This document shows, piece after piece, positions 3,076 to 54,986 of a stretch of 56,562 bases of DNA. The position numbers were made by a program, and so were the translations under genes. This DNA is from a virus: IMG/VR virus record IMGVR_UViG_3300021959_000047, positions 1 through 56,562 of that record, one strand, 5' to 3'. The number at the start of each line of letters is the position of its first letter. Within the stretch, counting starts at the first letter, position 1. A model generated the notes under the pieces. It had not been told where the DNA came from. It saw only the letters and a program-made list of their open reading frames with translations, and ran no database searches.

Positions 3076-3869
3076 TATGTTTCTCCTAAGTGTTGTAAGT
3101 TTTCTAAGTCGGTAGGGTTACGATACTTCAGGTCATCTGTCAGACGCAAGACTTTTACATCCTCAACATAACCTCTTAATTCTTTTGCGAACTGCAACGT
3201 CTTTGGTAGGGCATCGGGGTCAAGTGCAATTACAACCGTTGTGAACCGTGACAAGTACTGCTTATGTGCCTCAGAGAGTGAGGTGCCCAACACTGCTACC
3301 CCGACATACACCTCACCCTCTGAGCATCCAGAACCGCCTGTCGCACCCACAATGGCTGCACTCACACAGTCCTCAACGACTACTGCAGTTTTACCATACC
3401 CGTAGACATACGGCAAGGGGTTTTTTCCATATCTTTTCCACTTCGGTAATTTTTTCCCTAGTGCTCTGCCTGTGGCATCCACCATGATATTGTTGTGTAC
3501 CACAGGAAATACCACACGGTCTTCACGAACATCATACAACAACCCAAGGTTAGATGGGTGTAACTCCCATTCACTACAAAAGTTTTGTATCATGCTGTAG
3601 TCTTTAACTATCCACTCAGGTTTCTGAAATGTGACTGCCTCTGTTTCTTCAGCCACAGTACCAAGTGACTTACGAATGTCATCACTGGTCAGATGTACAC
3701 GTGTGCCACCAGACACACGGCACCCTGCCTTGTAACAATTCCACATAAGTTGACCCATGTTATTGGTGGCTGTAAATGTTTTTACTCCCCCACATACTGG
3801 GCAGTTAGTACGTTTAGTCTCACCATTAACTAAGTCCATATCACTTATGTGTTCTTTTATATTAATCAT
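3075..3869 (-). CDS. DNA primase, zinc-binding plus TOPRIM (T7 gp4 N-terminal type)
   Basis: Synthesises RNA primers. The N-terminal zinc module has C23, C26, C45 and C50 (CPVCGG, then CYKAGC). The TOPRIM half shows VVVEDCVSA with the conserved Glu and VIALDPDA with the DxD metal site. The chosen ATG overlaps the integrase stop by eight bases (ATGATTAA); an ATG 15 bases upstream is possible, and neither has a strong ribosome site. The gene is coupled to the helicase by TAATG. Confidence 0.88.
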   Translation of the reverse strand: MINIKEHISDMDLVNGETKRTNCPVCGGVKTFTATNNMGQLMWNCYKAGCRVSGGTRVHLTSDDIRKSLGTVAEETEAVTFQKPEWIVKDYSMIQNFCSEWELHPSNLGLLYDVREDRVVFPVVHNNIMVDATGRALGKKLPKWKRYGKNPLPYVYGYGKTAVVVEDCVSAAIVGATGGSGCSEGEVYVGVAVLGTSLSEAHKQYLSRFTTVVIALDPDALPKTLQFAKELRGYVEDVKVLRLTDDLKYRNPTDLENLQHLGET

Positions 3870-4989
3870 GTATATCACTTTCATTGTTACTCGTTACACT
3901 CGATTGTACTGACATGTCACGCAGTGTCAAGGCATTATTTGCACTATCAAATGTATGCTTCATGTATGGTTTCACAGATGCAACATGTGTATGCCCTGTA
4001 ACCGCCATGATTTGTGGCAATGGCACACCCTTGTCTACCATTTGTGTCACTCCAGTTCTACGTAAGTCCATAAGACGTAGCTCTTCGGATAGCTTTGCTA
4101 ACCGCATGACCTTGCGTCCAACCTTGGACAGTCTCTCCATTGCATAGGGTTGGAACCTACCATTGCGTGGTTGTGGGTGTGGTGCAACCCACTCTTGAAA
4201 ACCGAAGTCACTCTTCTGCTCTAACAACATGGCACACAGGTTGTCACTGATAGGCAGGAACACTTCCGACCTACGTTTACTCTGCTCCAGATACAGTTGC
4301 TGCTTCTTCAAGTCCAGATTATCCCAATGCAACATGCGCATATCACCAAGACGCTGACACCATTCATACGCCATGTGTACGATAAGTCCAATGTTACGAT
4401 ATTCAAAATCAGAATAAGCAACATCAAGAAATTTGACGACATCTCTGTGCTCCCATACTTTTTTCCTTTGCTTTTGTTGCTTTCGTTTTATCTTTGCAAA
4501 CGGGTTCTGTTCTGCATGCTCCATTTGTATGGCGTAGTTGTACACCCTACTGGCACACGTTGCCGCATGGTTTGCAAAACTTATACCACGTTCCACCCAT
4601 TTCTCATATGCTTGCTTTGCAACTTTAGGTGTAACATCTTTATACTTACGGCACCCAATTGTCTGGTGCACAATGGTTAAGAAGTACCTGTAATCTACTT
4701 TAGTTGAGTCACGCAACATATTGAAATCATTGGATTGATAGTAAAAGTTGATCAAGTCTGTGACCTTGCTGCTGGGTTTCAAGTTCACAACTTTAGCTTG
4801 TTCTTCACGGTACGTGTCTATGTCCTTGTTGTACTCACGTGCAATCTGTCTTGCAACTTTTGGATCACTCCCCAGTTCTTCACGGTCTACTACTCCTGCA
4901 TTCACCAGTGTCTGCGGTGGATTGAAACGATAAGAGATGTCACCCGAAGGTGACACTCGCTGTTGTACGTAACGTGGTAAGGTTCTCAA
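3862..4989 (-). CDS. int: tyrosine recombinase (phage integrase)
   Basis: Site-specific recombinase, 375 aa. The catalytic core shows R213 (WCQRLGDM), K238 (QSKRR), R311 (MDLRRTG), H333 (TGHTH) and the nucleophile Y342 (VKPYM); the usual HxxR box reads DxxR. An Arm/CB-type N-terminal half precedes it. The start is TTG, eight bases after GGAGG and directly after the upstream stop; no in-frame ATG is nearby. A lysogenic capacity is implied, but I find no repressor and no tRNA-like attP, so the enzyme could serve another role. Confidence 0.92.
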   Translation of the reverse strand: MRTLPRYVQQRVSPSGDISYRFNPPQTLVNAGVVDREELGSDPKVARQIAREYNKDIDTYREEQAKVVNLKPSSKVTDLINFYYQSNDFNMLRDSTKVDYRYFLTIVHQTIGCRKYKDVTPKVAKQAYEKWVERGISFANHAATCASRVYNYAIQMEHAEQNPFAKIKRKQQKQRKKVWEHRDVVKFLDVAYSDFEYRNIGLIVHMAYEWCQRLGDMRMLHWDNLDLKKQQLYLEQSKRRSEVFLPISDNLCAMLLEQKSDFGFQEWVAPHPQPRNGRFQPYAMERLSKVGRKVMRLAKLSEELRLMDLRRTGVTQMVDKGVPLPQIMAVTGHTHVASVKPYMKHTFDSANNALTLRDMSVQSSVTSNNESDIHD

Positions 4990-13783: not shown

Positions 13784-13812
13784 TTGCAATATTGTATGTA
13801 GTATGATATAAC
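13784..13812 (+). promoter_or_regulatory. candidate promoter TTGCAA-17-TATAAC upstream of DUF1127 gene
   Basis: TTGCAA (13784-13789) and TATAAC (13807-13812) are 17 bases apart. The -10 region lies in an 18-base block (13802-13819) repeated exactly upstream of the capsid gene at 23765-23782. Confidence 0.6.
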
Positions 13813-13822
13813 TATATATGGT

Positions 13823-13872
13823 ATAACTATCTCTGGTAGCAAAAGTTACCGATAACAAAAGGAGATAGTTAT
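13823..13872 (+). promoter_or_regulatory. hairpin hiding the ribosome site and start of the DUF1127 gene
   Basis: ATAACTATCTC (13823-13833) is the exact reverse complement of GAGATAGTTAT (13862-13872), which covers most of the GGAG ribosome site and the first two bases of the ATG. Between them GGTAGC/GTTACC (13835-13850) can form a second hairpin with an AAAA loop. The 5' arm would be at the very start of the mRNA from the promoter candidate just upstream. Confidence 0.7.
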
Positions 13873-14134
13873 GTTAAAGAAAATATTTGTTGCATTGATT
13901 GAGGCACGTCAACGTCAAGCCAATGCTCGTATAGCAGAGATGCAACTGAACCGTATGTCAAATCGTGAATTGCAAGATATTGGCATATCACGTTGTGATA
14001 TTAAAAGAGTGATATATGAAGACCTCAACGAAAAGACGATCAAAAGCACCAGTGGCAAAAAAGAAAATGGCTCGTGGCGGCAGTACATCTACAGTAAACT
14101 CGGCTGGGAACTACACAAAGCCAACCATGCGTAA
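13871..14134 (+). CDS. DUF1127 (YjiS-like) small protein
   Basis: Residues 1-50 match the DUF1127 pattern: basic N-terminal helix (LIEARQRQANARIAEMQLNR) then MSNRELQDIGISRCDIKRVIY. These proteins are abundant in alphaproteobacteria; some have been tied to RNA turnover and stress responses. A phage copy suggests capture from the host. The last 38 residues lie in another frame of the next gene and look unconserved, so they may be an overprinted tail. Expression is likely controlled by the hairpin over its start codon. Confidence 0.8.
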   Translation: MLKKIFVALIEARQRQANARIAEMQLNRMSNRELQDIGISRCDIKRVIYEDLNEKTIKSTSGKKENGSWRQYIYSKLGWELHKANHA

Positions 14135-22877: not shown

Positions 22878-23741
22878 ATGTCCGATACAATTATGGCTGA
22901 AGAAGTACAGCCAGAAAAGAAAGTAGCATTTGCAAATCGCAAGTATACAAACGAAGAACGAATCAAGCAAGAAGAAGAAGAGTTAGAGCAACTAATCGCA
23001 GAACAAAAAGGTGAGGTTGAAGAAGAACCAAAAGAAGCTGAACCTGATACTGCAGAAGAACGTAGCTTTAAAAAACGTTATGGTGATCTACGTAGACATC
23101 AACAACAAAAAGAAAAAGAACTTGAAGATAAGATTAAAGCACTTCAAGATCAATTGAACCAAGCAACTAAGAGTGAAATTAAACTACCTAAGTCTGATGA
23201 AGACATTGAAGCTTGGACAAAGAAGTACCCAGACGTAGCTGCTATTGTTGAAACTATTGCAATTAAAAAAGCAAAAGAACAATCAGAAAGTCTGGAAGCT
23301 CGTGTAAAAGAAATAGACGAGATGAAAGCTAATGCTACACGTGAGAAAGCAGAAGCTGAATTGATGCGACTACACCCAGACTTTGGTGAAATTCGTGATA
23401 GTGACGACTTTCATAACTGGGCTGAAGAACAGCCTAAGTGGGTACAAGACGCACTGTATGAGAATAATGAAGATGCTCGTTCCGCTGCTCGTGCAATTGA
23501 TTTGTACAAGGCAGATCGTAATATTAAAACAAAACGTTCATCTTCATCAAAAGATGCTGCACGTTCCGTAGGCGCACGGAATGAACGTAGTGCACCTCAA
23601 TCTACTGGCACTGCAGGTGCTATGTTAGAATCTGAGGTACAAAAGATGTCTGCACAAGAATACGAGAAACGATCTGATGAGATCATGGAAGCTATTCGCA
23701 CAGGCAACTTTATTTACGATTTATCTGGTTCTGCTCGGTAA
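22878..23741 (+). CDS. capsid scaffolding protein
   Basis: 287 aa, very acidic and helical. Coiled-coil stretch around 75-105 (QQQKEKELEDKIKALQDQL), then LMRLHPDFGEIRDSDDFHNW and WVQDALYENNEDARSAARAI typical of marine podovirus scaffolds, and a basic C-terminal part that would bind the coat protein. It lies directly upstream of the major capsid gene and guides shell assembly before being lost or cleaved. Confidence 0.88.
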   Translation: MSDTIMAEEVQPEKKVAFANRKYTNEERIKQEEEELEQLIAEQKGEVEEEPKEAEPDTAEERSFKKRYGDLRRHQQQKEKELEDKIKALQDQLNQATKSEIKLPKSDEDIEAWTKKYPDVAAIVETIAIKKAKEQSESLEARVKEIDEMKANATREKAEAELMRLHPDFGEIRDSDDFHNWAEEQPKWVQDALYENNEDARSAARAIDLYKADRNIKTKRSSSSKDAARSVGARNERSAPQSTGTAGAMLESEVQKMSAQEYEKRSDEIMEAIRTGNFIYDLSGSAR

Positions 23742-23747
23742 ATAGTA

Positions 23748-23775
23748 TTGACATATTAGTTATTTATGATATAAC
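23748..23775 (+). promoter_or_regulatory. candidate promoter TTGACA-16-TATAAC for the capsid gene
   Basis: TTGACA (23748-23753) and TATAAC (23770-23775) are 16 bases apart. The -10 part belongs to the 18-base block shared with the DUF1127 promoter. Best sigma-70 match in the virion block. Confidence 0.68.
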
Positions 23776-23791
23776 TATATATAATGGTAGG

Positions 23792-23824
23792 TTAGTACAG
23801 CCCCAGTATGGATACCTGTACTAA
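23792..23824 (+). promoter_or_regulatory. 5' leader stem-loop of the capsid mRNA
   Basis: TTAGTACAG (23792-23800) pairs perfectly with CTGTACTAA (23816-23824) around a 15-base loop. It would lie at the extreme 5' end of a transcript from the candidate promoter, a usual place for mRNA-stabilising hairpins. The rest of the 240-base leader shows no gene. Confidence 0.65.
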
Positions 23825-23985
23825 TCTCTATATTAGCAAACAACATATCCTTTCGGACAACCTAATCCCTCATGGCCCGTAGATTACAGTGTAGGCCAAC
23901 ATTGTAAGATACGCACCCTAGTAGAATTAGCCTTCGTATAAGTATAGTTAGTTTTGCATCTGTATTGCTTTTAAGGAGAAATATA

Positions 23986-54948: not shown

Positions 54949-54986
54949 ATAAAATCTCCTTTTCTGTTTGCGAGTTCTTAGTTATA

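Follow-up and report, generated by a model that had tools for sequence, protein, structure and literature searches.

A predicted promoter within the arm of a start-burying hairpin may select the transcripts from which a marine phage DUF1127 gene is translated

How can a phage gene be expressed when its ribosome binding site and start codon are held in a fully complementary hairpin? The question is raised by the DUF1127 gene of a 56,562 nt stretch of viral DNA, analysed here over its whole length and called the window. It is a closed phage genome of ~56.4 kb with a 153-bp terminal repeat, encoding replication genes, an integrase, a terminase and portal-like and major head proteins. Its nearest named relatives are the HMO-2011-type Roseobacter phages, with CRP-1 at the top (81% identity, 97% query coverage). 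Phages of this type are reported to rank with the most abundant marine phage groups known, and some of their subgroups have been noted as possibly temperate (PMC9038755). The integrase gene of the window (3865-4989, - strand) is of the tyrosine type (phrog_1, E 2.1e-38), given which this phage may be temperate as well. The DUF1127 gene is flanked by a conserved 119-aa gene on its 5′ side and by lysis and packaging genes on its 3′ side. Its start region comprises the following elements.

13823-13833, + strand: 5′ arm (anti-Shine–Dalgarno, anti-start), ATAACTATCTC, from sequence and folding
13835-13850, + strand: inner hairpin GGTAGC-AAAA-GTTACC, from folding and a base check
13860-13864, + strand: Shine–Dalgarno sequence AGGAG, from sequence
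13862-13872, + strand: 3′ arm over the Shine–Dalgarno sequence and start codon, GAGATAGTTAT, from folding and a base check
13871-14134, + strand: DUF1127 gene, 87 aa (PF06568, E 1.5e-8, 34.6 bits against a Pfam gathering cut-off of 23.3)

The two arms are exact complements of each other, and the 3′ arm contains most of the Shine–Dalgarno sequence together with two bases of the AUG (13871-13873). A wobble pair between T13822 and G13873 extends the helix, and 28 nt lie between the arms. The minimum free energy predicted for positions 13795-13880 is -26.4 kcal/mol (z -6.5), a value as low as which was reached by none of 200 shuffles. An earlier note on this DNA, made from the sequence alone, had described both the 11-bp hairpin over the ribosome site and AUG and the inner hairpin with its AAAA loop, and both are confirmed. 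Its suggestion of a riboswitch-like element finds no counterpart in Rfam, no family of which matched the window at the gathering score; no tRNA or tmRNA was found either.

Protein and pattern scans yielded at least 303 loci besides the window with at least 162 unique upstream regions, which were reduced to 78 representatives; 77 of these were kept (E <1e-5, recognisable Shine–Dalgarno sequence). Twenty-four of the 77 starts come from loci retrieved with a search pattern of which the tandem -10 boxes described below are a part; the other 53 were found by protein alone. The control genes are open reading frames of at least 60 aa with GGAG and ATG, some of which may not be real genes. At least three Shine–Dalgarno bases are paired with an upstream partner in 71 of the 77 distinct phage DUF1127 starts, and many members have the AUG buried as well. 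A stricter recount confined to GGAG gives three or more paired bases in 65/77, compared with 66/231 other genes from the same loci, and all four bases are paired in 55/77 compared with 25/231. The leader is not shared by the cellular DUF1127 genes checked: in 20 of them taken from genomes, the Shine–Dalgarno sequence is never fully paired, three or more of its bases are paired in seven, and TATAAY is present in one.

The pairing is maintained by several unlike arm types, for example ACTATCTC/GAGATAGT, ACTGTCT/AGACAGT, GTCTCTGTAA/TTATGGAGAC, CTACTCCT/AGGAGTAG, TATCCTC/GAGGATA and ATGTTCAT/ATGAACAT. RNAalifold found no pairs when 59 leaders were aligned with MAFFT, and the arms were therefore tested by duplex energy. 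Arms from the same phage form duplexes of -12.4 kcal/mol on average, compared with -8.7 kcal/mol for arms swapped between phages, and none of 10,000 permutations came near the observed sum. This test is conservative because many of the swapped arms come from close relatives; the own arm outranks all others as a partner in just 16/77. The control genes show no own-arm excess (z +2.8; 80 of the 235 genes used). In one arm type the Shine–Dalgarno sequence has shifted from AGGAG to GAGGA in two members, with four matching double changes, and the inner stems also vary, some being changed on both sides. The window's own arm type has just 3 of 18 pairs changed on both sides. For A5 the measure of further pair types does not rise above shuffles (494 of 500 reached its value), and the result for A6 is weaker, with a covariation score reached by 9 of 500 shuffles. 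A DNA operator with dyad symmetry was considered and rejected since the arms diverge widely in sequence while their pairing persists. Conservation and compensation of the arms, on which the earlier note had let its hairpin depend, are thus borne out by the arm swaps, the double changes and the split test given below. Judged from this comparison of leaders, the hairpin that buries the DUF1127 start in the mRNA is real and under selection. One type (loci L012, L014, L019 and L020) has in addition a GGCCCA upstream of the leader and, within the coding region, a complementary TGGGCC; the two may form a second long-range pairing.

The earlier note had overlooked a second TATAAC, which lies within the 5′ arm itself. 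With it, two promoters, P1 and P2, can be read by consensus in front of the gene.

13784-13789, + strand: -35-like TTGCAA of P1 (TTGCAA-17-TATAAC, consensus reading)
13807-13812, + strand: -10 box TATAAC of P1, predicted +1 near 13820, giving a transcript that includes the whole hairpin (consensus reading)
13822-13827, + strand: -10 box TATAAC of P2 within the 5′ arm; its +1 is predicted near 13835, where the inner hairpin begins

The P2 hexamer lies 15 bp downstream of that of P1, and it is the consensus reading of P1 that yields the mRNA start near 13820 supposed in the earlier note. Neither promoter is listed by the promoter scan of the window because its rule demands a T at the sixth -10 base. 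A -10-like hexamer starting 30-65 nt before the AUG is nevertheless present in all 77 DUF1127 leaders (53/53 in the protein-found set), against 28 of 235 control genes, and the exact octamer TATAACTA occurs in 66/77 against 3/235. Tandem -10 boxes, spaced within the narrow range of 13-15 bp, are found in 52 of the 78 representatives, the unbiased count being 28/53 in the protein-found set. CRP-1 (L016), a phage of roseobacter strain FZCC0023, shares the tandem and the arms of the window. In the fetched viral contigs the tandem pattern matched 118 times, and for 100 of these matches a DUF1127 start lies no more than 120 nt away. Among the remaining 18, the match in L267 belongs to a DUF1127 gene located close to the end of its contig, and the others appear unrelated, mostly members of one repeated sequence family; the idea that the tandem leader also serves other genes was accordingly dropped. 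The P1 hexamer is absent from 25/77 members, in which P2 and complementary arms are nonetheless present. A pyrimidine-purine step is found at the predicted P1 start in 44/52 tandem members and at the predicted P2 start in 49/77, including 20 of the 25 members without P1. There is no clear -35 element for P2, in the window or in the P2-only members, and several of the latter carry other sequence, partly dyads, at the expected -35 place, which suggests that P2 may depend on an activator. Four P1-less loci (L126, L153, L022 and L021) have short dyads (AGGTACTACTACCT, CACCTAATTAGGTG and GGTA..TACC) upstream of the P2 -10 box; these are possible activator sites.

The position of the P2 box was compared with that of the pairing across the leaders. 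For the comparison, the P2 hexamer was defined without regard to the arm, as the TATAAC, TATAAT, TAAAAC or TATAGT closest to the AUG yet at least 30 nt from it. The anti-Shine–Dalgarno segment ends 9-13 nt past the start of a -10-like hexamer, that is between the -10 box and +1, in 59 of the 71 starts with a paired Shine–Dalgarno sequence, the other 12 having another geometry. We split the leaders 13 nt past the hexamer start, where transcription from P2 is predicted to begin; L021, with its hexamer in the loop, was omitted from the limited regions of this test and from the sliding test, and starts that had less than 8 nt of downstream sequence were not used. Upstream of the split the leaders are strongly complementary to the start region (z -10.6 for tandem members, n=52; z -7.4 for P2-only members, n=24), with none of 5000 permutations as good in either group, and downstream they are not (z 0.1, n=49, and z -1.2, n=22, respectively). 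In sliding windows the complementarity is maximal at +5 to +12 and tails off by +14. The part that pairs with the start is therefore mostly the part that a P2 transcript would lack. In 41/77 the inner hairpin has its first pair at +0 to +2 relative to the predicted P2 start. Leaders in which the P2 hexamer takes no part in pairing with the start, those of the GTCTC type for example, retain it all the same; it is therefore kept for a role in the DNA, which points to control by promoter choice.

The predicted costs of opening the start are in line with such control. To free the region from the Shine–Dalgarno sequence to the AUG, the mean predicted cost is 10.0 kcal/mol for read-through RNA and 10.5 kcal/mol for P1 RNA (n=52), compared with 3.1 kcal/mol for P2 RNA; for the window the values are 7.2, 12.0 and 2.1 kcal/mol. 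Opening is cheaper by at least 4 kcal/mol in the P2 RNA of 66/77 members, the drop being smaller in 11/77 (e.g. L020, L079 and L123). The closed translation anticipated by the earlier note is upheld in so far as the transcripts containing the arm, from P1 or from further upstream, are predicted to be closed. Read-through from the upstream genes is possible since no terminator-like site was found on the + strand between 11.4 and 13.8 kb of the window.

We consider it probable, from the sequence evidence, that a translation switch based on promoter choice gates the phage DUF1127 gene by way of the predicted P2 in the 5′ arm. Polymerase that reads in from the genes upstream, or that initiates at P1, 15 bp before P2, would give an mRNA that carries the arm, and translation would be off. 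Initiation at P2 would yield an mRNA without the 5′ arm, beginning at the inner hairpin, with a free start site from which the protein could be made; the inner hairpin may in addition stabilise this mRNA. The infection stage, a phage activator or the state of the DNA are candidate triggers that could shift transcription to P2. More tentatively, and with somewhat less confidence than the switch itself, we propose a wider picture in which a pair of promoters, spaced 13-15 bp, would yield a closed and an open mRNA whose 5′ ends lie ~15 nt apart, with the octamer acting as promoter box and, in the window type, also as part of the anti-start arm. Very common ocean phages would thereby gate a possibly RNA-binding DUF1127 protein through promoter choice, often rewriting the arms while holding the geometry.

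Sigma-dependent promoter-proximal pausing has a precedent at lambda PR′, where the pause element lies just past the promoter start. The second hexamer could act likewise on the P1 transcript and load an antitermination factor onto the late operon, as described for antiterminator loading at such a pause (PMC7171158), with the hairpin merely keeping DUF1127 low. The narrow tandem spacing would suit a pause element lying roughly at positions +2 to +4 of the P1 transcript. We regard this as unlikely, given that 25/77 leaders have the second hexamer alone, with arms that are complementary upstream of its predicted start. Also, when 40 window proteins were compared with PHROGs profiles, no Q-like protein came up except for a weak match (E 0.00058) that falls within the DNA polymerase; the same comparison revealed neither a sigma factor nor an RNA polymerase. 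Autoregulation, in which binding of the DUF1127 protein, or of another protein or RNA factor, to the leader would open or lock the hairpin, takes some credit from CcaF1, a DUF1127 protein of Rhodobacter described as binding RNA (PMC10253847), but other DUF1127 proteins are described as working through protein contacts (PMC12501420). The loops and arms hold no kept sequence that could be a binding site for such a factor or for an sRNA, and the end of complementarity at the predicted P2 start would be left unexplained, which makes this explanation distinctly unlikely. The hairpin might instead be a constant damper of translation or a stabiliser of the mRNA 5′ end, without any switch. In B. subtilis a short hairpin at the sigG ribosome binding site lowers translation 2-4-fold (PMC5942855), and P1 transcripts would begin at the stem base. 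Opening costs near 10 kcal/mol, however, would almost silence the gene, and the fixed position of the -10 box at the arm has no place in this very unlikely account. The thermosensor proposed in the earlier note was rejected: the AU-rich stem does hold the Shine–Dalgarno sequence and AUG, but the predicted cost of opening them in the P1 transcript drops from 20.9 kcal/mol at 5 °C to no less than 10.7 kcal/mol at 42 °C, leaving an RNA thermometer next to no probability.

Promoter choice acting through a hairpin is not without parallel. Late promoters of phage T4 have the motif TATAAATA and are recognised with the sigma factor gp55. In the T4 genes e, soc, 49 and I-TevI a hairpin sequesters the ribosome binding site and a late promoter lies at its 5′ arm (PMC3014915, PMC2988022). 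As in these accounts of T4, the Shine–Dalgarno sequence and/or AUG of a small gene within a longer transcription unit is in a helix on upstream transcripts, while a local promoter, here a predicted one, gives transcripts missing the 5′ part of the helix. In contrast to T4, the present device is found in marine HMO-2011-type phages on a DUF1127 gene, and there is often a second -10 box just 13-15 bp upstream that would yield the closed form. Its -10 motif is the octamer and not the T4 late motif, and a T4-type late sigma was not found among the 40 window proteins with PHROGs; the leader is therefore not classed as a T4-type member. It resembles the T4 late-promoter hairpins in its working and is not their homologue. 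In enterobacterial pyrC, start-site selection at one promoter gains or loses a hairpin at the ribosome binding site through a shift of 2-3 nt in response to nucleotides. The phage leader likewise would make two mRNAs that are a few 5′ bases apart, one of them closed, but the shift is 15 nt and involves two predicted promoters. For B. subtilis sigG, it has been proposed that the read-through transcript is kept from being translated by a large hairpin, which is absent from the own-promoter transcript (PMC5942855), an arrangement similar to that predicted here. However, sigG is a host developmental gene, and the description drawn on here does not make the -10 box part of the arm. The duf1127 gene of Sinorhizobium meliloti is described as controlled by attenuation, which involves a translated upstream ORF and the termination of transcription (PMC12218461). 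Control by the mRNA leader would thus be common to both DUF1127 genes, whereas no upstream-ORF/termination device is seen in the phage leader.

The novelty claimed by the earlier note holds in part. No paper on a phage DUF1127 leader was found among titles and abstract starts in searches for DUF1127 with phage or RNA-binding and for HMO-2011 with roseophage or promoter, and the words DUF1127, hairpin, sigma and operon are all absent from the text of the HMO-2011 comparative paper (PMC9038755). As far as these searches show, a predicted promoter-in-hairpin leader on a phage DUF1127 gene is new, while the kind of device is already known from T4. It would represent a precise regulatory device, predicted in abundant marine phages. 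If promoter choice is true, the T4 promoter-in-hairpin logic appears in an unrelated phage group, and DUF1127 is marked as a gene that these phages translate only from certain transcripts.

A few further observations concern related sequences. CRP-13 contains a DUF1127 ORF with its own rewritten hairpin (L023, 1971-2135) that is not annotated in the published phage record. A promoter-like TTGACA-TATAACTA at 54986 on the - strand of the window points toward the - strand replication genes and suggests that the host polymerase may recognise the octamer. Behind another TTGACA-TATAACTA (23770), a leader of 244 nt (23741-23985) precedes the gene for the major head protein (from 23986). This leader opens with an 11-bp stem, GGTTAGTACAG/CTGTACTAATC, and shares GCACCCTAG...AGCCT with the capsid leaders of L188 and L201.
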